From the NCBI RefSeq assembly GCF_012027425.1, contig NZ_SNUE01000005.1, positions 186,001-250,000 on the forward strand: a stretch of 64,000 bases of DNA, in the 5' to 3' direction. Position 1 is the stretch's first letter, and each line of letters opens with the position of its first letter. Under the pieces are notes generated by a model, which was not told where the DNA came from, ran no database searches, and worked only from the letters and a program-made list of their open reading frames with translations. Both the position numbers and the translations under genes were made by a program. Shown in pieces: positions 632 through 11,169 of this stretch. Origin of the DNA: Thermococcus sp. MV5 (GTDB lineage: Archaea > Methanobacteriota_B > Thermococci > Thermococcales > Thermococcaceae).

Positions 632-3493
632 TTATGTGAAGAGTTCAACTGGAGTGAAACCTCCTCTTGCCTTTTTGACCTTCAGCTTCATGTTGAAACT
701 ATTGATAATTGTTCCATCTTTTTCTGCCCATAGACCGGCCGGTATGACCAAGGTCTCACCATTAAGATCTTCTCTTGGTTTTCCTATAACTACATAAGCA
801 CTACTTTTGGGAATGCCTTTAACCCCGGCCTTTAGGAGGCCAACCTCATTGACGCCTTCGTGTAGAATAAGTGTTGGAACGGTAAGTGGCTCAGCGGGTG
901 CTTCAAGTATTGCGACTTCATAGTTCTCCTCCACAAGTTCCTTATCTTTTAGGAGTATCTTGAGGACAGGGAACTTTTTGATGTCTGCCTTTAGAAGCAC
1001 CTTTTTGGCCTTTATGATGTCTTCAAGTGTTGCTGTTGAAATGCCCTCTTTAACAAATGCCCCAAGTTCGATGTTTCTCTTCTCTGCAAACTGCTTAAAG
1101 AACGTAATCTCCTCGTTTGTAACTTCGGGGGTGAGGATTAGAGCAAAATTATTCTCATCTATGAACTTTTTAGCTTCTTCCCAGCTCACTGGCTTGCCGT
1201 TGAGGAGTGGTTGAGTTAGCCCTTCGGCCCAAGGCTTCTCAAATCGGCAGATGTCACACAAATGTCCATTGTTCCATGAGGGGAGTTTTGATGATGCCCT
1301 CACGAGCATGTCCTCATACACTTCAATGTTCATCTCACAAGCTAAGCCACAGCCGTTGCACACCGTTGCCACCGGCGTGGTTTTCCATGGACCGGGCTTA
1401 ACAAATGGAAGCTTTTCGCTGATAGCTCCAGTCGGACAAACATCTATCATGTCACCAATAAATTGACCATCCATGTCCGAAAGCTTCATGCCCACCGGAG
1501 GTGAAATCATGGTCTTAAAGCCTCTAAAAGTATAGTCCAGAATGCCTTCGCCAACCACTTCTTGGGTTAAATTAACGCATCTCCCGCACAAAACACACTT
1601 GTTGTTGTCCAAGACAACGCTTGGATGGGTTTCATCGAGCTCAAAGCGGTTCTGTTCGCCAATGAATGCATATTGCTTGGCATCATAGAGCGTTGCATAC
1701 TCCCTGAGCTTACACCTAAAGACCTCCATACATCCACAGGACATGCATCTCTGAGCCTCTTTAAGCACTTCCTCTTCGCTCAGTATGAGTTCAACTTCCT
1801 CAAAGTTCTTAACTCTCTCTTTAGCATCTTTAAGCTTGGCCTTAACCCTTGGAATCCGCTCCACGTGTGCGTAATCCTCTTCACTAACATCTTTCCAGTG
1901 GTTGTATGGTTTTAAGTCGAAGAGTACTCTGTACAAGTCCTCATCGCCCACAATCTCCATTATGTGCTTTGATGGCTCCAAAAGAGCTTCTCTGGCCTTT
2001 TCGAGCTTACCTTTGAGGTAGAGGTCTATCATTATTGCCGCTCTTCTTCCAGTGGCTATGGATTCTATCACTGTTGAAGGGCCCAAAACGAGATCGCCAC
2101 CCGCAAAGACACCTTCAATGCTTGTTTGAAGCGTTACATCGTCCACCAAAGCTTTGCCTCTCTTTGCCTCAATTCCCAAACTCTTCAAGAACTCCTCATC
2201 GCAGTACTGTCCGATGGCTAAAATCACATTGTCCGCCTCAACCGTAAAGTTTGAGCCTTCTATTGGTATAGGTCTTCTCCTTCCGCTTGCATCAGGTTCT
2301 CCAAGCTCCATTTTAATTAGCTCTACCTTCTCGACTTTTCTTTCCCCCAGTATCCTGACTGGATTTGTGAGGAACATGAATCTAACGCCCTCTTCCTCGG
2401 CCTCTTCCACCTCGCGCTCGTTGGCGGGCATCTCTTCCCTTGAACGCCTGTAAACGATAGTAACTTCGGCACCAAGTCTTAGAGCTGTTCTTGCCACGTC
2501 CATGGCAGTATTTCCGCCACCTACGACTATAACCCTCTTTCCGAGCTCAACCTTCTCGCCCTTGTTGACCTTTCTAAGGAACTCTATGCCGTGCATGACT
2601 CCCTCCAAATCTTCGCCTTCAATGCCCATCTTTCTGCTCTTCCAAGCTCCAACACCCAAAAAGACCGCATCATATTTTTCTCTAAGCTCCTCCAATGTGA
2701 CGTCTTTACCAAGGGCACAGCTGGTCTTGACCTCTATGCCAGTGCCTATTACCGTGGCTATGTCTTTATCCAAAACATCTCTTGGAAGCCTGTAAGGAGG
2801 AATTCCATAGCGCATCATTCCTCCAAGCTTAGGCATAGCCTCAAAGATAGTCACATCATGTCCCATTGTCCTCAAATAGTAGGCACAGGCTAATCCGGCT
2901 GGTCCTCCCCCAACAACAGCCACTTTCTTACCCGTTGAAGGCGGGATTTCTGGCATCCACGGCCCGTGCTCCAAGTCATAATCTGCTGCATACCTCTTTA
3001 GCTGCCTTATCGCGAGGGGTTCTTCAACCAGATTGCGCCTGCACTCATCCTCACAAAAAGCGGGACAAACCCTTCCAAGGACTGCGGGGAGGATATACTT
3101 TTCTTTCATGAGCTTCACAGCTTCATGGTACTTACCCATAGCTATCAAAGCTAAATAACCTTGAACATCACTGTGGGCAGGACATCCCTTCTGGCAGGGT
3201 CCGATACAATCGCCATAGTGGTCGGAGAGCATAAGTTCAAGAGCGGTTCTCCGCATCTCGACGATTGTGTCGTTAAGTGTTTCAATGGCGAGACCTTCCA
3301 TAGGCTTAAGAGTACATGAAGTTGTCAAACCTCTGGGTGTTTCGACAAGGCAGAGGCGGCAAGAGCCATAGGGTTCTATTTCATCGTCGTAACACATACC
3401 CGGAATGTGCTCGCCTTTTTCCCTAAGAATCTTAAGGAGGGTTTTATCATCAGGAACTTCCATCTCCTTGCCGTTAATTATAACTTTCACCAT
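632..3493 (-). CDS. NuoG-like iron-sulfur protein fused to a GltD-type NAD(P)H:acceptor flavoprotein
   Basis: A 953-residue multidomain redox protein. In order: a plant-type [2Fe-2S] ferredoxin domain (residues 1-90, cysteines in GMCYDDE, GSCRLC and TSC); a GltD-like module (about 95-550) with its own Fe-S cysteines, an FAD site VVGGGPAGLACAYYL and an NADPH site VVGGGNTAMDVA; further cysteine clusters (CMSCGC, CVLCGRC, CPTGA); then a C-terminal stub of the molybdopterin-oxidoreductase Fe4S4 domain (CNGCGLAC ... CDIC) with no catalytic molybdenum domain. The ATG at 3493 was chosen over the GTG at 3502 because GGGTGA lies five bases upstream and the gene then begins one base after nuoF stops. 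It is the last gene of a nuoE-nuoF-nuoG-like operon. It probably channels electrons between NAD(P)H and ferredoxin. The physiological partner is not visible. Confidence 0.88.
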   Translation of the reverse strand: MVKVIINGKEMEVPDDKTLLKILREKGEHIPGMCYDDEIEPYGSCRLCLVETPRGLTTSCTLKPMEGLAIETLNDTIVEMRRTALELMLSDHYGDCIGPCQKGCPAHSDVQGYLALIAMGKYHEAVKLMKEKYILPAVLGRVCPAFCEDECRRNLVEEPLAIRQLKRYAADYDLEHGPWMPEIPPSTGKKVAVVGGGPAGLACAYYLRTMGHDVTIFEAMPKLGGMMRYGIPPYRLPRDVLDKDIATVIGTGIEVKTSCALGKDVTLEELREKYDAVFLGVGAWKSRKMGIEGEDLEGVMHGIEFLRKVNKGEKVELGKRVIVVGGGNTAMDVARTALRLGAEVTIVYRRSREEMPANEREVEEAEEEGVRFMFLTNPVRILGERKVEKVELIKMELGEPDASGRRRPIPIEGSNFTVEADNVILAIGQYCDEEFLKSLGIEAKRGKALVDDVTLQTSIEGVFAGGDLVLGPSTVIESIATGRRAAIMIDLYLKGKLEKAREALLEPSKHIMEIVGDEDLYRVLFDLKPYNHWKDVSEEDYAHVERIPRVKAKLKDAKERVKNFEEVELILSEEEVLKEAQRCMSCGCMEVFRCKLREYATLYDAKQYAFIGEQNRFELDETHPSVVLDNNKCVLCGRCVNLTQEVVGEGILDYTFRGFKTMISPPVGMKLSDMDGQFIGDMIDVCPTGAISEKLPFVKPGPWKTTPVATVCNGCGLACEMNIEVYEDMLVRASSKLPSWNNGHLCDICRFEKPWAEGLTQPLLNGKPVSWEEAKKFIDENNFALILTPEVTNEEITFFKQFAEKRNIELGAFVKEGISTATLEDIIKAKKVLLKADIKKFPVLKILLKDKELVEENYEVAILEAPAEPLTVPTLILHEGVNEVGLLKAGVKGIPKSSAYVVIGKPREDLNGETLVIPAGLWAEKDGTIINSFNMKLKVKKARGGFTPVELFT

Positions 3494-3494
3494 T

Positions 3495-5297
3495 TTAATC
3501 ACCCTTATGAGCGTCCATTATTTTTATGGCGTTGAATCTACAAACATCATAGCAAGTTCCGCATTTTATGCACTCTGCCTGATTTATCACGTGAGGCTTC
3601 CCTCTTTCGCCGCTTATGGCTTTAGTTGGACACATTATTGCACATGCTGTACATCCCGTACAGTTTTCCGCGATTATGACGTACTTTATAAGAGGCTTAC
3701 AGACTTTGGCAGGACACATCTTTTTCTCAACATGGGCTAAGTATTCATCTTTGAAGTATCTAAGAGTTGTTAAAACCGGATTTGGAGCGGTTTGTCCAAG
3801 ACCACAGAGGGAGCCAGTCTTCACCTGAGGTGCGAGCTTTTCGAGCACTTCTATATCCTCAAGGGTCCCTTCTCCATTGGTTATCTTGTCCAGAATTTCC
3901 CACATTCTCTTAGTCCCTAAGCGGCAGAAAGTACACTTTCCGCACGATTCCTTGACGGTGAAGTCTAGGAAAAACTTGGCGACATCGACCATACAGGTAT
4001 CTTCGTCCATAACGACCATTCCACCGCTCCCCATGATAGCACCTGTGGCGTTGACGGACTCGTAATCAACGGGCGTGTCAAATAGATATTCTGGAATACA
4101 ACCCCCAGAAGGACCTCCTAATTGAACTGCCTTAATCTTTTTGCCAGTTTTAGTTCCACCACCAATCTCATAGAGTATTTCCCTCAAAGTCATTCCCATT
4201 GGAACCTCGACGTTTCCACCCCTAGCTATTTTTCCGGCCAAAGCGAAGACCTTAGTACCCTTACTCTTTTCGGTTCCAAGCTTTGCATACTCTTCCCAGC
4301 CGTGCTTTATTATCCACGGAACGTTTGCCCACGTCTCAACGTTATTTATGTTTGTGGGCTTGCCCCAAAGACCTTTTTGAGCTGGATAAGGCGGCCTTGG
4401 CCTAGGCATTCCTCTCTTACCTTCAATGGAAGCTATCAAAGCCGTCTCTTCTCCACAAACGAAAGCTCCAGCACCTTCCTTAATCTTTATATCAAAGGAG
4501 AAGCCGCTTCCTAGTATATTTTCCCCTAAAAAGCCTCTCTCCTTTGCCTGCTTTAGGGCTATCTTAAGCCTTCTTATTGCAAGGGGATACTCAGCTCTCA
4601 CATAGATGAAGCCTTTGGTAGCCCCTATAGCATAGGCTCCAATTAACATTCCCTCTATGACACGATGGGGATCGCCTTCGAGGACGTTCCTATCCATGAA
4701 TGCTCCGGGGTCTCCTTCATCAGCATTACAAATTATGTATTTTTCATCCCCTTTTGCCTGCCTTGCAAACTTCCATTTAAGCCCCGTTGGGAAGCCAGCT
4801 CCTCCTCTTCCTCTAAGGCCAGACTTCGTGATTACATCGATTATCTCCTCGGGCTTCATTTGGAGAGCCTTTTTGAGGGCCTCATAGCCCCCAGCTTGAA
4901 TGTACTCATCAATGTTCTCAGGGTCTATATAACCACTGTTTTCTAGAACTATCTTTTTCTGCTTTGCGAAGTAGCCATCGATATCCCATGTTTTTCTTAT
5001 GCCGTTTTCATACCAGTCCTTCTTCACTATCCATTCTTCGATAGGTTTCCCATTAATAACGTGTTCATCAATAATTTTCAACACTTTTTTGGGGGTAACG
5101 TGGCCGTAGGTGATGATTTCATTCTCGGTTATTATATCTACGAGTGGCTCTCTATAACACATTCCAACGCAGCCAACGACTTTTAATGGGATATCAATGC
5201 CTCTCTCTTTCAGCTCCTTCTTAATGGCCTCATAAGTTTCTTTAGCACCCGCTGCTATTCCACAGGAGTTCATTCCAACAGCTATGGCTTTAATCAT
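3495..5297 (-). CDS. NuoF-like NADH-binding flavoprotein subunit with C-terminal ferredoxin domain
   Basis: A 600-residue homologue of complex I 51-kDa/NuoF and of HydB of bifurcating hydrogenases. Residues 1-100 form a thioredoxin-like ferredoxin domain (CGIAAG, CVGMCYRE). The core has the FMN/NADH signature GRGGAGFPTGLKW and the GEETALIASIEG segment. The [4Fe-4S] motif CGKCTFC plus a downstream CGLG completes the NuoF fold. The last 60 residues add a two-cluster ferredoxin (CTGCTACAIMCP, CIKCGTCYDVC), as in soluble hydrogenase and formate dehydrogenase partners. The ATG at 5297 follows GGTGAGCTAG and overlaps the end of the NuoE gene by eight bases, so translation is coupled. It would oxidise or reduce NAD(H) at FMN. 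Confidence 0.93.
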   Translation of the reverse strand: MIKAIAVGMNSCGIAAGAKETYEAIKKELKERGIDIPLKVVGCVGMCYREPLVDIITENEIITYGHVTPKKVLKIIDEHVINGKPIEEWIVKKDWYENGIRKTWDIDGYFAKQKKIVLENSGYIDPENIDEYIQAGGYEALKKALQMKPEEIIDVITKSGLRGRGGAGFPTGLKWKFARQAKGDEKYIICNADEGDPGAFMDRNVLEGDPHRVIEGMLIGAYAIGATKGFIYVRAEYPLAIRRLKIALKQAKERGFLGENILGSGFSFDIKIKEGAGAFVCGEETALIASIEGKRGMPRPRPPYPAQKGLWGKPTNINNVETWANVPWIIKHGWEEYAKLGTEKSKGTKVFALAGKIARGGNVEVPMGMTLREILYEIGGGTKTGKKIKAVQLGGPSGGCIPEYLFDTPVDYESVNATGAIMGSGGMVVMDEDTCMVDVAKFFLDFTVKESCGKCTFCRLGTKRMWEILDKITNGEGTLEDIEVLEKLAPQVKTGSLCGLGQTAPNPVLTTLRYFKDEYLAHVEKKMCPAKVCKPLIKYVIIAENCTGCTACAIMCPTKAISGERGKPHVINQAECIKCGTCYDVCRFNAIKIMDAHKGD

Positions 5298-5754
5298 CTA
5301 GCTCACCTTTTTTGAGCTTTTTCATAAGCTTCCTAACTTTATCTGGTGTAAGCTTTCCGTAAACTTTCTCATTTATCATTATAACCGGTGCTAGGCTACA
5401 GCAGCCGAGACAGGCAACCCTTTCAAGTGTAACCAGACCGTCCTCTGTTGTTTGGCCTTCTTCAATGCCAAACTCTTCTTTAATGGCTTGAGAAATGTTC
5501 ACAGCACCGTTTACGTGACACGCAGTCCCATGGCATATTTTTATGACATACTTTCCAAGAGGCTCAAAGCGGAACTGCGCGTAGAAAGTGGCTACACCGT
5601 AAACCCTGCTTAAAGGAACACCAAGATGGATAGAAATCTCTTTAAGGGCTTCTTTCGGCAGATAACCAAATTTTTCTTGGGTTTTCTGTAGCAGTGGGAT
5701 CAAAGAACTTGGGCTTTTTTCATGTTCATAGATATAACCAAAAGGGGCTTCCAT
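5290..5754 (-). CDS. NuoE-like [2Fe-2S] thioredoxin-fold subunit
   Basis: A 154-residue homologue of complex I 24-kDa/NuoE and HydC. Four cluster ligands are visible, in CHGTACHV and in CLGCCSLAP, with the conserved YGVATFYAQF helix before them. It would carry a [2Fe-2S] cluster next to the NuoF flavin. The ATG at 5754 is preferred to the ATG at 5766 because GGTGATTAAA sits at proper distance, the same arrangement seen before the NuoG-like gene. It is the first gene of the three-gene minus-strand operon and is divergent from the sulfhydrogenase genes. A TATA-like element lies at 5805-5815. Confidence 0.93.
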   Translation of the reverse strand: MEAPFGYIYEHEKSPSSLIPLLQKTQEKFGYLPKEALKEISIHLGVPLSRVYGVATFYAQFRFEPLGKYVIKICHGTACHVNGAVNISQAIKEEFGIEEGQTTEDGLVTLERVACLGCCSLAPVIMINEKVYGKLTPDKVRKLMKKLKKGELDD

Positions 5755-5804
5755 TTTAATCACCATTCATAATGTTCATTTGTCATAACTTTCTTATCAT
5801 GGAT

Positions 5805-5870
5805 GTTTATAAAAATACACTAAAGTACATGTTTTTAACCTGAAGTTGGACACTCATTGTTTAAAAAATC
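5805..5870. promoter_or_regulatory. divergent promoter region between the Nuo-like and sulfhydrogenase operons
   Basis: On the minus strand TTTTTATAAAC (5805-5815) is a TATA candidate about 50 bases before the NuoE start. On the plus strand TTTAAAAAATC (5860-5870) is a TATA candidate about 55 bases before shyB. The SurR-like site at 5831-5847 lies upstream of both, which suits activation in both directions. TATA calls are by eye. Confidence 0.6.
5831..5847 (+). promoter_or_regulatory. SurR-type operator GTTn3AACn5GTT
   Basis: The sequence GTTTTTAAC, five bases, then GTT matches the full extended SurR consensus known from Pyrococcus furiosus. There SurR, a sulfur-responsive redox switch, activates hydrogenase operons when sulfur is absent. 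The site lies about 13 bases upstream of the plus-strand TATA candidate and about 16 bases upstream of the minus-strand one. Function is inferred from the match and the location. Confidence 0.75.
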
Positions 5871-5924
5871 CTTAAATCGGTTCTTTACAAACATAAAATT
5901 GAATAATATATTTGGGTGGTTATC

Positions 5925-6929
5925 TTGCGGTATGTAAAGTTACCTCAGGAAAATTTTGAGGAATTCTTCAATTCGCTGAAGAAATGGGGCATCGTCTATG
6001 CTCCAGTAAAAAAAGAAAATATCTACTCATTCCAAAAAGTTCAAGATGTTTCGGAAATAGCCTTGGATTACACAAGGACAATGCTTCCACCGAAAAAGTT
6101 CTTCGTAAGGCCAAAAGATGAGATGCTTAAGCTTAAAGAGGGCCATTGGGAAGAGGCTAATGGCACAGAGCCTATAGTTCTCTTTGGGGTTCATTCTTGC
6201 GATATACACGGGCTAGAAATTTTGGACAAAGTTTATTTGGGTGATCCAGTGGACCCGTACTACAAAAAAAGACGGGAGAATTCAATAATAATAGGTATAA
6301 GCTGTATGCCAGATGAATACTGTTTTTGCAAAAGCTTAGGCACAAACTTTGCCATGCACGGGTTCGATTTGTTTTTACATGAACTTCCCGATGGCTGGCT
6401 TGTCAGAGTTGGGAGTGTAAAGGGACATGAGATTGCATGGGGAAATGAAGAGCTCTTTGAGGAACTAACTGAAGAAGACATGAAGAATTTTAGAGAATTT
6501 GAGGAAAAAAGAGCTAATTCGTTCCAGAAACACCTTAACAAAGAGGGACTTGAAGACATGCTTGACCTAGCGTACAACAGCCCTGTGTGGAAGAGATACG
6601 AGAGAATTTGTCTTGGCTGTGGGAACTGTAACATGGTTTGTCCGACATGCAGGTGTTACGAAGTCTGTGACCTCTGGATGAATGCATATGAAGCAGTAAG
6701 AGTTAGACGTTACGATTCCTGTTTCATGGAGAGTCATGGTTTAGTGGCAGGAGGGCATAATTTCAGACCAACTCGCTTAGATCGCTTTAGACATCGTTAC
6801 TACTGTAAGAGTTACTTTGATCCATCTGCGGGCTTTAATTGCGTTGGTTGTGGACGATGTGATGAATTCTGCCCAGCAAAGATAGAACACGTTAAAGTTC
6901 TTGATGAAGTAAGGGAGGGATTGCAATGA
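5925..6929 (+). CDS. shyB: sulfhydrogenase beta subunit (iron-sulfur electron transfer)
   Basis: This subunit passes electrons from the NAD(P)H-flavin gamma subunit toward the hydrogenase dimer in group 3b [NiFe] sulfhydrogenases, which act in the cytoplasm. Two [4Fe-4S] motifs are near the C-terminus (CLGCGNCNMVCPTC, CVGCGRCDEFCP), with extra cysteines in CRCYEVC and SCMPDEYCFC. The start is taken as TTG 5925 because GGTGG stands at the right distance and the protein then begins MRYVKLP, as in known homologues; GTG 5916 is the alternative. At about 335 residues it resembles the shorter SH II-type subunit rather than SH I. It is first in the shyBCDA order, and its stop overlaps shyC by four bases. 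Confidence 0.93.
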   Translation: MRYVKLPQENFEEFFNSLKKWGIVYAPVKKENIYSFQKVQDVSEIALDYTRTMLPPKKFFVRPKDEMLKLKEGHWEEANGTEPIVLFGVHSCDIHGLEILDKVYLGDPVDPYYKKRRENSIIIGISCMPDEYCFCKSLGTNFAMHGFDLFLHELPDGWLVRVGSVKGHEIAWGNEELFEELTEEDMKNFREFEEKRANSFQKHLNKEGLEDMLDLAYNSPVWKRYERICLGCGNCNMVCPTCRCYEVCDLWMNAYEAVRVRRYDSCFMESHGLVAGGHNFRPTRLDRFRHRYYCKSYFDPSAGFNCVGCGRCDEFCPAKIEHVKVLDEVREGLQ

Positions 6930-7792
6930 CCTTCCAAACACATGATGCAAGGATTTTAGAGGTAAAAGAACTAACTTCAAGAGAGAAACTCTTCACCCTC
7001 CGTTTTGTTGATCCTGAGATTAACAGGAAGTTCAAATATAAGCCGGGTCAATTTGTAGTGGTTGACATCAGAGGATTTGGAGAGTTCCCAATAAGTCTTT
7101 GTTCAACTCCCACAAGAGAAGGCTATTTCCAGCTTTGTGTTAGACGAGTAGGGAGAATGACCAAATACATGCACAATTTGAAAGAGGGAGATATAGTTGG
7201 AATAAGAGGTCCATATGGTAACGGGTTCCCAATGGAGAAAATGGAAGGAAGCACGTTAATCTTAGTAGCAGGCGGTCTAGGAATGGCACCACTAAGGTCA
7301 GTACTTTGGTATGCCCTTGATAGTGGAAAATATGAAAAGATATATCTGTTCTATGGTACTAAGGCCTACGAGGATATTCTCTTTAGAGACGAGGTAATTC
7401 ATCTGCTGAAACATGGGGAGGACATGAACTGTCACGTGAAACTTGCCTATGAAGTGGAAAGTCCCTCATGTATATATCTAGAGAAGGGCTACTCACCAAG
7501 AGTTTGTAAGGGAGTTGTCACGGATCTCTTTAGAGGAGAAAACTTTGATGTAGAAAACACATATGCCTTGATATGTGGTCCTCCAGTGATGTATAAGTTC
7601 GTTATCAAGGAGCTCTTAGACAGAAAGCTATCTCCAGGGAGAATTTACATGACCCTTGAAAGAAGAATGCGGTGTGGAGTTGGAAAATGCGGGCACTGCA
7701 TCGTTGGAACAAGCACCTCAATTAAGTACGTGTGCAAAGATGGTCCTGTATTCACGTATTGGGATGCACTTTCAACAAGGGGGCTGATATGA
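6926..7792 (+). CDS. shyC: sulfhydrogenase gamma subunit (FAD/NAD(P)H reductase)
   Basis: A ferredoxin-NADP reductase-fold protein of 288 residues that connects NAD(P)H with the Fe-S chain of the sulfhydrogenase. It has the FAD-binding FPISLCST, the pyrophosphate loop GPYGNGFP and the nucleotide-binding LVAGGLGMAPLRS. A C-terminal [2Fe-2S] site is visible (CGVGKCGHC, then a fourth Cys about a dozen residues on in KYVCKDG). The ATG at 6926 overlaps the shyB stop and ends within the shyD start, so the four genes are translationally coupled. Confidence 0.94.
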   Translation: MTFQTHDARILEVKELTSREKLFTLRFVDPEINRKFKYKPGQFVVVDIRGFGEFPISLCSTPTREGYFQLCVRRVGRMTKYMHNLKEGDIVGIRGPYGNGFPMEKMEGSTLILVAGGLGMAPLRSVLWYALDSGKYEKIYLFYGTKAYEDILFRDEVIHLLKHGEDMNCHVKLAYEVESPSCIYLEKGYSPRVCKGVVTDLFRGENFDVENTYALICGPPVMYKFVIKELLDRKLSPGRIYMTLERRMRCGVGKCGHCIVGTSTSIKYVCKDGPVFTYWDALSTRGLI

Positions 7793-8529
7793 TGCTCAAA
7801 TTGGGTGTTTTTGAGCTGACTGATTGTGGTGGATGTGCATTGAATCTCCTCTTCCTCTATGAAAGACTCTTTGACCTGCTTGAGTTCTATGAAATAAAAG
7901 AGTTCCACATGGCATCGAGCTTTAAAGAGCATGACACTTTGGATGTTGCCTTGGTTACGGGAACCGTCTCTACTCAGAGAGATTTAAACCTCCTCCATTA
8001 TGCAAGGAACCATTCTAAATACCTCATTGCATTAGGAACATGTGCTACCCATGGAGATGTTCAGGCTAGTGTTGAAGGAAAAATAAGAGAGAAACTTGAG
8101 AAAGTTTATGGGACTAAAGCAAACCCGATGAGAGCCTTAGACTCAACTCCAATTGTTCAGCATGTTGCGGTAGATTATGCACTACCAGGTTGTCCTTATG
8201 ATAAGGATGAGATTTACCAAATTCTCATGAATCTGGCTAAGGGCGTTGAGCCACCAACAAAGGATTATCCTGTATGTATAGAGTGTAAACTGAATGAATA
8301 CGAATGTGTCCTTATAAAAAGAGGTATTCCTTGTCTGGGGCCCATAACTCTCGGAGGTTGCAATGCGGTGTGCATAAAGTCCAAAGTGGGTTGCATTGGT
8401 TGTAGAGGACCACTACCCAAAGAAGCAAATCCAGCAAGTGAATTTGAGATTCTAAAGGAGCTCGGTTATGATGAAGAATACATTCGCAGAAAGTTTAAGA
8501 CTTTTGCAAGGGGTGAGCTCAGATGGTAA
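7789..8529 (+). CDS. shyD: sulfhydrogenase delta subunit ([NiFe] hydrogenase small subunit)
   Basis: Small subunit of the [NiFe] hydrogenase, housing the proximal and further [4Fe-4S] clusters. Cluster ligands are in TDCGGCALN at the N-terminus, GTCATHGD, LPGCPYDKDEI, and the C-terminal CIECKLNEYEC and CLGPITLGGCNAVC ... CIGCRG. A longer reading to 7732 exists but would lie inside shyC. The paired ATGs at 7789/7792 overlap the shyC stop, and the protein then begins LKLGVFELTDCGG as expected. No twin-arginine signal is present, consistent with a cytoplasmic enzyme. Confidence 0.93.
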   Translation: MMLKLGVFELTDCGGCALNLLFLYERLFDLLEFYEIKEFHMASSFKEHDTLDVALVTGTVSTQRDLNLLHYARNHSKYLIALGTCATHGDVQASVEGKIREKLEKVYGTKANPMRALDSTPIVQHVAVDYALPGCPYDKDEIYQILMNLAKGVEPPTKDYPVCIECKLNEYECVLIKRGIPCLGPITLGGCNAVCIKSKVGCIGCRGPLPKEANPASEFEILKELGYDEEYIRRKFKTFARGELRW

Positions 8530-9773
8530 GCATTGAAATAGATGCATTCACAAGGGTTGAAGGGAACGGAGGAGCAGAAGTCATCATTGAAAATGGGGAA
8601 GTAAAAGACGTCAAAGTTAAAATATTTGAGGGGCCGAGGTTCTTTGAACTTCTTACCCTAGGAAGATACTACTGGGATGTGCCAGATTTGGAAGCAAGAA
8701 TATGTGCGATTTGTTATCTTTCACATTCCGTTGCTTCAGTGCTTGGCATAGAGAGGGCTTTTGGCGTCAAGGTTTCAAAAGAGATAGAACTTTTGAGGGA
8801 ACTTGGACTTCTTGGGGAGCTTTTGGAGAGTAATGCCCTGCATCTATACTTACTAGTAGCTCCTGATCTTTTTGGATATCCTGATGCAATACGAATGGCA
8901 AGTAAACATGGAGAAATTGTCAAAGAAGGGCTGGCAATTAAGGCCTTTGGTAATTATATCCGGGAAATCATTGGTGGAAGAGAGATACATGGCATTAACA
9001 TCAAGCCAGGGGGATTTGGAAGATATCCTACTGTAGAGGAATTAGAAAGAATGGAAAGGCAAAGTGAGGCCTTATTAAGGCTTGCAAGAAGAGGAGTGGG
9101 AATATTCGCTGGTCAAGAAACACTCGGGGCTAAACCCGTGCATTATGTTGTAGTCAATGGGTATCTGTATGGAGATAAGCTCATAGCATCAGATAAAGAC
9201 ACCTTTGATTACTTTGAACGCATTGAGGAAGAGGCCTTGTCGTATAGTTTTGCAAAGCAGAGTAGGTACAAAGGCGAAATTTTCATGGTGGGTGCACTCC
9301 CAAGAGTCCTACTAAAGTCAGAAATGTTGACTCCAACGGCAAAACACCTCTATGAAGAGTATAAAGAGAAACTTGCTCAGGGTTATGTAAGCTTAAATAA
9401 CCTGGCTCAGGCAATTGAACTTGTTTATGCACTGGAAAGAACCAAGGAGATAACTAGAGAACTCTTGGACAAAGGTATCAATGGGGAAAACGTACCCATT
9501 GAGCCTCAAGAAGGAGAGGGGATTGGCTACGTTGAAGCACCTAGGGGGGTTCTGATACACCATTATAAAATTAATGAAGATGGAAACATTGCATATTCAA
9601 ATATTATTACTCCTACGGCATTTAACCACGCTATAATGGAGCTCAGCCTCTATGAAGAAGCCAAAAGAAGGTATGGAACTTCAGATGAAAGTGCATTTTT
9701 GCAGAAATTGGAGGAAACAGTAAGAGCTTTTGACCCATGTATTTCCTGTTCTGTGCACGTTGTTAGACTTTAG
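8523..9773 (+). CDS. shyA: sulfhydrogenase alpha subunit ([NiFe] hydrogenase large subunit)
   Basis: Catalytic large subunit with the [NiFe] centre. The N-terminal motif RICAICYLSH and the C-terminal motif DPCISCSVH supply the four cysteine ligands. After the last His only VVRL remains, so there is at most a very short tail for maturation proteolysis, as in Pyrococcus group 3b enzymes. Its 416 residues fit SH II better than SH I; this is a length-based inference. It overlaps shyD by seven bases and ends the operon. No maturation (hyp) genes are in the window. The enzyme evolves or consumes H2 with NAD(P)(H) and may reduce polysulfide. Confidence 0.95.
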   Translation: MVSIEIDAFTRVEGNGGAEVIIENGEVKDVKVKIFEGPRFFELLTLGRYYWDVPDLEARICAICYLSHSVASVLGIERAFGVKVSKEIELLRELGLLGELLESNALHLYLLVAPDLFGYPDAIRMASKHGEIVKEGLAIKAFGNYIREIIGGREIHGINIKPGGFGRYPTVEELERMERQSEALLRLARRGVGIFAGQETLGAKPVHYVVVNGYLYGDKLIASDKDTFDYFERIEEEALSYSFAKQSRYKGEIFMVGALPRVLLKSEMLTPTAKHLYEEYKEKLAQGYVSLNNLAQAIELVYALERTKEITRELLDKGINGENVPIEPQEGEGIGYVEAPRGVLIHHYKINEDGNIAYSNIITPTAFNHAIMELSLYEEAKRRYGTSDESAFLQKLEETVRAFDPCISCSVHVVRL

Positions 9774-9835: not shown

Positions 9836-10507
9836 TTGGAGTCCCTAAAGGACATCTTTAAACTTATTGATGAAGTGAAATTCGGGGAGAATGTACTTAT
9901 TGAGTATTATCGCTCTTTCATTCCGGAACTAACTACCCTTGGTCTTTTATATTATGCAAGAGAAAAGGGACTGCCTGTTGTCATTGATGATAATTTTGAT
10001 GCCCTTCATGTTATTCAAAAGCATCTCGAATTTGTGGGCATTAAAGAGGACTTTAAAGATGTATTTGTTATAAAAACTGGTGGAAAGAGGGAAGTGGGGA
10101 ATGTCGTTACGAGGATTAAATTCGTAAGTGAACCCGCCATCTATATAAAGAACTATGAAGACACGGGAAGAGCTATTTTTTCAAAGCTTGAAAGATCAAT
10201 AAACATTGTTCTTGGTCTTGAAAGATTGTTTGCGTTTGTTAGTTCTGTTTCAGAGTTTTATGCGTTGCTCTTATCAATACAGTCCTTCTTAGGCAATAAA
10301 CGAAGGAAATCTTTCTACCTAATTAACAAAGACGTAGCATCTTCAAGTGAGTTCAATCCTCTTCCAGAATTAGAGCGCGTGGCAACCACAGTGATTGAAG
10401 CAACGCCAACACCTACAAGTGGATTCTTCACTTTTAGAAAATCTACAAATTTAGAGCTACTAGGAAAGAGTATTGAGGTTCCTGTAGGGGTGATAGGATG
10501 GAGATAA
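9836..10507 (+). CDS. DUF257 family protein, copy 1
   Basis: A 223-residue protein of the Thermococcales-restricted DUF257 family, function unknown. It is clearly paralogous to the next gene: both share KHLEF, DVFVIKTGGK or DVLVIKTGGK, EP..Y...YE, and INIVLGLERLFAF. Start TTG at 9836 follows AGGTGA. There are no obvious membrane segments. The repeated buried strands (VLIEYY, PVVIDD, DVFVIKTG, INIVLGLERL) suggest an alpha/beta, perhaps RecA-like, fold; that is inference. The ten-base overlap with the second copy points to a tandem duplication kept as an operon. Confidence 0.8.
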   Translation: MESLKDIFKLIDEVKFGENVLIEYYRSFIPELTTLGLLYYAREKGLPVVIDDNFDALHVIQKHLEFVGIKEDFKDVFVIKTGGKREVGNVVTRIKFVSEPAIYIKNYEDTGRAIFSKLERSINIVLGLERLFAFVSSVSEFYALLLSIQSFLGNKRRKSFYLINKDVASSSEFNPLPELERVATTVIEATPTPTSGFFTFRKSTNLELLGKSIEVPVGVIGWR

Positions 10508-11169
10508 CAAAGGATCTAGTCTTTAACATGTTGGATAGGACATCATTTGGTGACTTAGTTCTAATAGAAGATGAAACTTCTTATGGGTGCACTTTGGCTA
10601 CATATTTTTTCGTAAACTATGCACGTGAAAGAGGTCTAAAAATCCTTATTGATGATGTTCTGGATTCTCTCTTCTTAGTAAAAAAACATCTAGAGTTTTT
10701 ACAGTTGCAGGAAGATTTCTCAGATGTGCTTGTGATCAAGACTGGTGGGAAGAAGAATATCGGAAAAATCGTTGCGAGGATTCCTCTTGAGAGCGAGCCC
10801 GTAGTGTATCTCAGTCGTTATGAAAATGCAGCTAGGAGTGTTTATTCCGAAGGAAAATACATAAACATTGTTCTTGGTCTCGAAAGATTGTTTGCATTCA
10901 TGCAGAGTCCCTTTGAGTTTTATACAGTTATAGATTCCATTCAGGGGTTTTTGGGGAACCAAAGTAGAAAGGCCTTTTATATAATAGACAAGAATGTAGC
11001 CTCAACATTAAAATTCAATCCCATTCCTGATTTAGAGGAGATAGCAACAACCATTCTTTATATACAGGGAAAGTACGGAAAGGGAAAAATACGCTTTATA
11101 AAGAGTCCCTTTGTTGAATGGTTGAATGAGGACTTTGAAATTGTGTTAGATAAAGTTCTAAAGTGGTGA
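10498..11169 (+). CDS. DUF257 family protein, copy 2
   Basis: Second member of the tandem DUF257 pair, also 223 residues and collinear with copy 1. The shared blocks include IDDVLDSLFLVKKHLEF, VLVIKTGGKKNIG, INIVLGLERLFAF, SIQGFLGN and DKNVAS...FNP.PDLE. The N-terminus is preceded by GGGGTGATAGG. It leads into the small translation-factor-like gene, so the three are probably cotranscribed. No function can be assigned. Confidence 0.8.
   Translation: MEITKDLVFNMLDRTSFGDLVLIEDETSYGCTLATYFFVNYARERGLKILIDDVLDSLFLVKKHLEFLQLQEDFSDVLVIKTGGKKNIGKIVARIPLESEPVVYLSRYENAARSVYSEGKYINIVLGLERLFAFMQSPFEFYTVIDSIQGFLGNQSRKAFYIIDKNVASTLKFNPIPDLEEIATTILYIQGKYGKGKIRFIKSPFVEWLNEDFEIVLDKVLKW

Follow-up and report, generated by a model that had tools for sequence, protein, structure and literature searches.

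Does one regulatory site serve two divergent operons in Thermococcus sp. MV5? For the window, the 64-kb (64,000-nt) stretch of DNA analysed here, a preliminary description had proposed a full SurR consensus at 5831–5847 between a hydrogenase operon and a Nuo-like operon. We confirmed this site as an exact match: GTTTTTAACCTGAAGTT at 5831–5847 (+), reading GTTTTTAAC-CTGAA-GTT, is the long SurR motif GTTn3AACn5GTT and the single match to that pattern in the window. On its right lies shyBCDA, encoding sulfhydrogenase II (SHII), and on its left, in divergent orientation, lies bfuCBA, a three-gene Nfn-Bfu operon, with the following genes.

632–3502 (−): bfuA, with 2Fe-2S, GltD/NfnL-like NADP-binding and NuoG-like ferredoxin domains (Pfam PF13510, PF14691, PF07992, PF22117)
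3495–5297 (−): bfuB, NuoF-like with extra 4Fe-4S domains (Pfam PF01512, PF10589, Fer4)
5290–5754 (−): bfuC, NuoE-like, thioredoxin-like 2Fe-2S (Pfam PF01257, 1.4e-53)
5925–6929 (+): shyB, sulfhydrogenase II beta subunit (NCBIfam NF040829, 701.6 bits, cutoff 690; ORF from 5916)
6926–7792 (+): shyC, gamma subunit (NF040830, 614 bits, cutoff 600)
7783–8529 (+): shyD, delta subunit (NF040831, 473 bits, cutoff 460)
8523–9773 (+): shyA, alpha subunit, NiFe large subunit (NF040828, 775 bits, cutoff 700)

All four Shy subunits (A, B, C, and D) exceed their NCBIfam cut-offs, and SHI, whose models score far under theirs, was ruled out as the hydrogenase; the operon, previously described as a sulfhydrogenase, is thereby narrowed to sulfhydrogenase II. 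The likely start of shyB is TTG at 5925, after GGTGG at 5915–5919, and the likely start of bfuC is ATG at 5754, with a Shine-Dalgarno-like ggtgat. Beyond shyA, 9836–11169 holds a tandem pair of similar 223-aa ORFs, and similar-looking ORFs follow shyA of Palaeococcus pacificus.

For the divergent operon, Pfam domains give the composition of a Type 1 Bfu enzyme: a 2Fe-2S BfuC, a BfuB with an FMN domain, SLBB, the NuoF 4Fe-4S and extra Fe-S clusters, and a BfuA with an NfnL/GltD-like NADP-binding domain (PF14691, PF07992). The best solved-structure match of BfuB is chain 9n5u_B ('NfnB', 1249 bits), from an entry that we take to be the Nfn-Bfu enzyme of Thermococcus sibiricus. By its domains, the operon is a predicted homologue of this electron-bifurcating enzyme, and the domain set and closest solved chain rule out complex I or glutamate synthase as its identity; the Nuo/GltD-like domains first noted are thus present, with the complex that carries them redefined as Nfn-Bfu (BfuCBA), not complex I. 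Like the T. sibiricus enzyme (NfnABC; PMC9304861; 9n5u/9n5v), as far as that is described there, it has three genes with the same domains. Each Thermococcaceae organism is reported to have either Nfn-Bfu or NfnAB (PMC9304861), and the closest NfnS relative in this genome is 41% identical, with 26–31% for the other three matches, in line with that paper's account of this kind of enzyme.

The motif is more than chance by its place, not by its count. Whole-window shuffles contained a mean of 0.51 long-motif matches and at least one match in 40 of 100 cases, so the presence of a motif somewhere in 64 kb is unremarkable. Across the whole genome, of 1.98 Mb in 101 contigs, there were 26 long-motif matches versus 28 for a reversed control pattern; the pattern itself is therefore not enriched, and we dropped raw motif counts as evidence. 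Shuffling the bfuC–shyB intergenic region itself (170 bp, 26% GC), however, seldom produced the long motif, which arose in 93 of 20,000 shuffles by dinucleotide and 80 of 50,000 by mononucleotide. A mechanical ORF criterion placed 12 of the 26 genome matches between genes, in 10 regions, and the other 14 inside ORFs. Nine of these 10 regions adjoin hydrogen/sulfur-type genes, the motif-adjoining genes being surR/pdo, three MnhE-like genes, hypF, hypA, a CoA-disulfide-reductase-like gene, a SipA-like/FmdE pair (the SipA-like gene belongs to the FeMo-Co family), and shyB. SurR itself is encoded in this genome (L025), with a PF0095-like_C domain and CTEC as its CxxC, and matches structure 2qlz, 'Transcription Factor PF0095', at 314.8 bits. 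One of the ORF-internal matches (L004, 1486–1517) falls ~15 nt before the first ATG inside its ORF, which has 351 aa and a pyridine-nucleotide-binding start resembling, by eye, that of thioredoxin reductase; this motif may mark a further SurR target.

We searched 94 Thermococcaceae genomes for ShyB and BfuC and read the DNA upstream of shyB. ShyB matches at E ≤ 1.8e-174, among the matches listed, defined 63 SHII loci in 62 genomes (G052 twice), leaving out G091, where shyB is cut by the contig start, and G082, where shyB is split. One locus lay at a contig end; in the 62 with a nameable divergent neighbor, SHII always faced either Nfn-Bfu (39 loci, by BfuC) or the unrelated NfnI (23 loci, by NfnS). 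The long motif was present upstream of shyB in 38/39 Nfn-Bfu loci and 22/23 NfnI loci, or 61/63 with the contig-end locus, compared to 1/63 for the reversed control pattern, although kinship among the loci, which are not independent, inflates these counts. The count includes two misses, G012, which has an NfnI neighbor and lacks the long motif, and G077, where shyB is interrupted; G093 (NfnI) was scored as motif-bearing with its motif at another position. In G077 (L129), shyB breaks off after about a dozen codons, with a mobile element suspected, and the SurR site beside bfuC is intact; the site is also present in G082, which was checked separately.

BfuC was found in 45 of the 94 genomes: the 38 that hold the 39 loci, five genomes without intact SHII, G082, and G003, where the only relative is 45% identical and lacks the motif. 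For 42 NuoE relatives with no SHII on the stretch examined (L134, L136, and L140–L179; archaea and bacteria mostly outside Thermococcales, the last few being weak matches, with L138 dropped where the contig starts inside bfuC), none had the long motif in the 260 nt upstream. These include L134 and L136, with no motif upstream of a BfuC that is 84–86% identical to that of this genome. L134, L136, and L138 are MAG contigs labelled Thermoplasmata, Euryarchaeota, and DHVE2, which carry Nfn-Bfu with a BfuC 84–93% identical and no SHII on the stretch, reflecting either transfer to other archaea or misbinning.

That the motif matches by chance, or serves a regulator other than SurR, would be compatible with a genome-wide count no higher than that of the reversed control, but we hold this explanation to be highly improbable, as the motif is conserved at 61/63 loci against 1/63 for the control, its specified bases are conserved while its spacer bases vary, and the intergenic matches adjoin the targets expected of SurR. 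The conserved candidate element also extends beyond the 5831–5847 of the preliminary description, to 5861, as a tandem of two palindromes, the second of which has one mismatch and reads GTTGGACAC. The full tandem, as judged by the long motif on both strands, occurs in 31/39 Nfn-Bfu loci. The features of the intergenic region are as follows.

5805–5812 (−): TATA-like box of the bfu operon, TTATAAAC; 18 nt from the SurR core in 38/38 and 7/7 further loci
5816–5829 (−): conserved element TGTACTTTAGTGYA between the SurR core and the bfu TATA, found by column conservation
5831–5847 (+): long SurR motif GTTn3AACn5GTT, exact match; present between shyB and its divergent partner in 60/62 SHII loci
5831–5861 (+): extended tandem SurR element GTTn3AACn5GTTn3AACn5GTT, 14/15 specified bases
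5863–5877 (+): BRE/TATA-like core promoter of shyB, AAAAAATCCTTAAAT, a conserved block

The SurR motif is thus upstream of a sequence-predicted TATA-like box in each direction, at 5812–5805 (−) and 5870–5877 (+; CCTTAAAT), as the proposal of two divergent TATA candidates had it. The SurR core and the bfu TATA were 18 nt apart in 45/45 loci (38 regular loci, five genomes without intact SHII, G077, and G082), despite a range of 38 to 66 nt from the bfu TATA to the bfuC start among the 38 regular loci. On the other side, a TTAAAT-like box of shyB was 31 nt from the SurR core in 37/38 loci. The columns of TGTACTTTAGTGYA, which occupies the gap where an A-rich BRE would be expected, are mostly invariant or nearly so across 38 loci. 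Joined to the TATA, with three or fewer mismatches, this element was found only at the bfu promoter in 5/5 genomes searched; alone, with one mismatch, it had one further match each in G000 (this genome) and G002. We considered the palindrome-like TGTACTTTAGTGCA adjoining the bfu TATA as a second regulon operator, but its pattern TGNACTNNAGTNCA had 0 matches in this genome and the joined element is confined to the bfu promoter, so that a multi-target regulator is not supported. In the shyB leader of G064 (L043), an insertion of ~90 bp with inverted ends, ctgtcaagataa ... ttatcctgacag, sits between the shyB core promoter and start and resembles, by eye, a small mobile element.

Natural losses of either operon bear directly on whether the site belongs to both. 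Among the matches listed, five Nfn-Bfu genomes have no intact SHII (G018, G024, G027, G050, and G058). Decayed pieces of shy genes remain in G018 and G027, and there is no shy gene within 1.0–2.3 kb to the right in G024, G050, and G058 (none in 1.5 kb in G024). G050 and G058, in which a common junction joins the SurR site to a gene homologous to the one at 11163 in the window, were counted as one loss event, and the losses are undated. In all five genomes, 15/15 specified tandem bases are kept and the bfu TATA still stands 18 nt away, with 44 bp to the right that are only 23–50% identical to the nearest SHII-bearing promoter. Compared to that promoter (nearest relatives were chosen by promoter identity), 0/15 specified positions had changed in each genome, versus 5, 6, 11, 8, and 5 of 16 spacer positions in G027, G018, G024, G050, and G058, respectively; the best p value for this contrast was 6.8e-5 (G024), and two genomes were at 0.043. 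Conversely, in four genomes of the same genus without Nfn-Bfu (G075, G076, G080, and G081), NfnI starts ~130 nt from the SurR core, the SurR site and shyB core promoter are kept, and there is no bfu TATA. Sequence at the position of the bfu TATA and a GTGCAC element is only partly alike in these genomes, and we read it as a relic of the bfu promoter. Thus, the SurR site is retained with either operon alone.

These losses weigh on a reading in which SurR would control only shyBCDA from this site and Nfn-Bfu is merely adjacent and transcribed independently of sulfur. SurR motifs upstream of SHII are known in T. barophilus (PMC12162507) and T. piezophilus (PMC8595942), the four genomes without Nfn-Bfu keep the site, and shy remains persist in two of the five SHII-less genomes, where the loss may thus be recent. 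All five, however, keep the site and its fixed spacing to the bfu TATA, and in P. pacificus, Nfn-Bfu is reported to go slightly down with sulfur (PMC6981617), which together make an operator for shyBCDA alone quite unlikely.

The expression results come from Palaeococcus pacificus DY20341 (G002), whose BfuC is the closest found, at 95%. With sulfur, PAP_01490–01505 were reported down 2.66–3.20-fold and the 'complex I' genes PAP_01510–01525 slightly downregulated, in one study (PMC6981617). From gene order and the tag series, the former would correspond to shyADCB and the latter to bfuC, bfuB, bfuA, and a nitroreductase-like gene; 'SHI' and 'complex I', as named in that paper, appear by sequence similarity and gene order to be SHII and Nfn-Bfu. 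The same study reports HypF up 10.8-fold and MBH1 slightly up with sulfur, which is not what a simple SurR-activation model would predict: reduced SurR is described in a review as binding GTTn3AAC(n5GTT) and promoting mbh and sh genes without sulfur (PMC10025317), and SurR activates from sites upstream of BRE/TATA until sulfur oxidizes its CxxC and causes release (PMC8595942, PMC12401011, PMC10025317). NfnI, moreover, is reported up on sulfur in P. furiosus (PF1327–1328) and T. onnurineus (TON_0057; PMC6981617, PMC4463584), and an upstream SurR site therefore does not guarantee activation of the partner operon. Taken together, the responses of NfnI, HypF, and MBH1 mean that position does not by itself give away the sign of regulation.

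SurR might then act oppositely on the two sides, activating shyB and repressing Nfn-Bfu, so that the bifurcating enzyme would be sulfur-induced as reported for NfnI, which occupies the same position (PMC6981617, PMC4463584); a T. onnurineus SHII subunit seen with starch only is in keeping with such a scheme (PMC4463584, PMC6981617). We regard this as unlikely, because the site is 18 nt upstream of the bfu TATA without overlap in 45/45 loci, there is no GTTn3AAC between the bfu TATA and the bfuC start in the window (5754–5812), and P. pacificus Nfn-Bfu goes slightly down, not up (PMC6981617). Since a single site precedes both TATA boxes and the bfu TATA has none after it, the arrangement is read most simply as joint activation in the absence of sulfur. 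The earlier proposal that the Nuo/GltD-like operon belongs to the sulfur-responsive regulon of the hydrogenase is accordingly supported at the level of prediction, by the persistence of the site after loss of either operon, by the invariant spacing from SurR site to TATA, and by lower expression of both operons with sulfur in P. pacificus, the second only 'slightly'.

We therefore think it probable that 5831–5861 is a bidirectional SurR operator that activates shyBCDA and bfuCBA without sulfur, both falling with sulfur. Without elemental sulfur, reduced SurR would bind between the two core promoters and recruit the transcription machinery in both directions, turning both operons on, and the co-made enzymes would pass electrons among H2, NADPH, NADH, and ferredoxin; with sulfur, the SurR thiols would oxidize, SurR would leave, and both operons would fall. 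SurR binding at this site, activation as the sign of regulation, and the transcription starts are what we infer, and the direction of bfu regulation is less firm than the sharing of the site, given that NfnI partners are reported up on sulfur. Co-production would make sense, since SHII transfers electrons between H2 and NAD(P)H, as Nfn-Bfu does among NADPH, NADH, and ferredoxin; coupled NADPH/ferredoxin/NAD bifurcation has been reported for the T. sibiricus enzyme (PMC9304861). If this operator is correctly predicted, it brings a Bfu-type bifurcating enzyme of archaea into the sulfur regulon. The genomes read here also point to a simple physiological rule, with SHII paired to a single enzyme that brings NADPH, NADH, and ferredoxin into equilibrium. 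The natural losses on both sides make the claim of a shared operator testable in genetically tractable Thermococcales.

The SurR regulon was reportedly worked out in Pyrococcus furiosus and T. kodakarensis, by Lipscomb in 2009 and 2017 and Hidese in 2017. The predicted scheme here draws on the same consensus and redox switch, and accounts of that regulon have SurR activating genes from upstream sites and repressing them from overlapping ones. Tabulated sites of two species already place SurR motifs ahead of SHII and assign one to an adjacent NfnI (PMC12162507, PMC8595942): T. barophilus SHII has a long SurR motif at 67 bp (PMC12162507, Table 2), and in T. piezophilus the long motif is listed for SHII (69) and the adjacent NfnI (72), presumably as one shared site (PMC8595942, Table 2). 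The long motif at SHII is thus a point of likeness to both. The partner here, in contrast to T. piezophilus, is the unrelated Nfn-Bfu, not NfnI, and the site differs from the entries in both tables as a tandem two-palindrome element with one mismatch and an 18-nt spacing to the partner's TATA. A text search found SurR unnamed in the main text of PMC9304861, and no earlier link between Nfn-Bfu and SurR was found there or in a literature search that stopped short of the main SurR papers, which may list one. Less expected is that unrelated enzymes should be exchanged at a single operator.

Sequence comparison suggests how the present genome came by its operon and site. Its closest ShyB proteins are those of G080 and G076 (98%), whose divergent neighbor is NfnI, and collinearity with G076 starts at 5822. 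Identity to P. pacificus, by comparison, is about 90–98% over 1251–5750 and mostly about 70–80% in the shy genes. Trees of the two sides disagree: BfuC+BfuB groups this genome with P. pacificus (support 0.853), and ShyB groups it with G080/G076 (support 0.978). Informative sites were 33 donor-like and 9 host-like over 5754–5861 (n = 42), 0 and 12 over 5862–5924, and 2 and 13 over 5925–6000, which locates one more feature.

5858–5882 (no strand): putative recombination junction, by informative sites, P. pacificus-like to the left and host-like to the right

The last donor-like site before the switch is 5857 and the first host-like site after it is 5883, and the block between them, GTTTAAAAAATCCTTAAATC, which is common to all, corresponds to the shyB core promoter. 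Operon and site therefore look like an acquisition from a Palaeococcus-like source that was joined on within this core promoter; from the switch at 5857/5883, the SurR site and the Nfn-Bfu genes probably arrived together. Any relative of P. pacificus may have been the donor, and it is from the tree that the direction of transfer is read. We would give even odds to a broader reading, in which the promoter region that SHII shares with its neighbor is an exchange point: recombination in the shyB core promoter would bring the unrelated Nfn-Bfu or NfnI in, and take it out again, beside a SurR operator that stays in place, and in this genome the operator would have come with Nfn-Bfu from a Palaeococcus-like archaeon and taken over the resident hydrogenase. 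If that holds, regulon membership was inherited by promoter replacement, not evolved. At the other end of the operon, identity to P. pacificus is only 63–72% over the 3′ end of bfuA (632–1250), compared to about 90–98% elsewhere in the operon; bfuA thus has a mosaic look, and the transfer may have its left junction near 1250.
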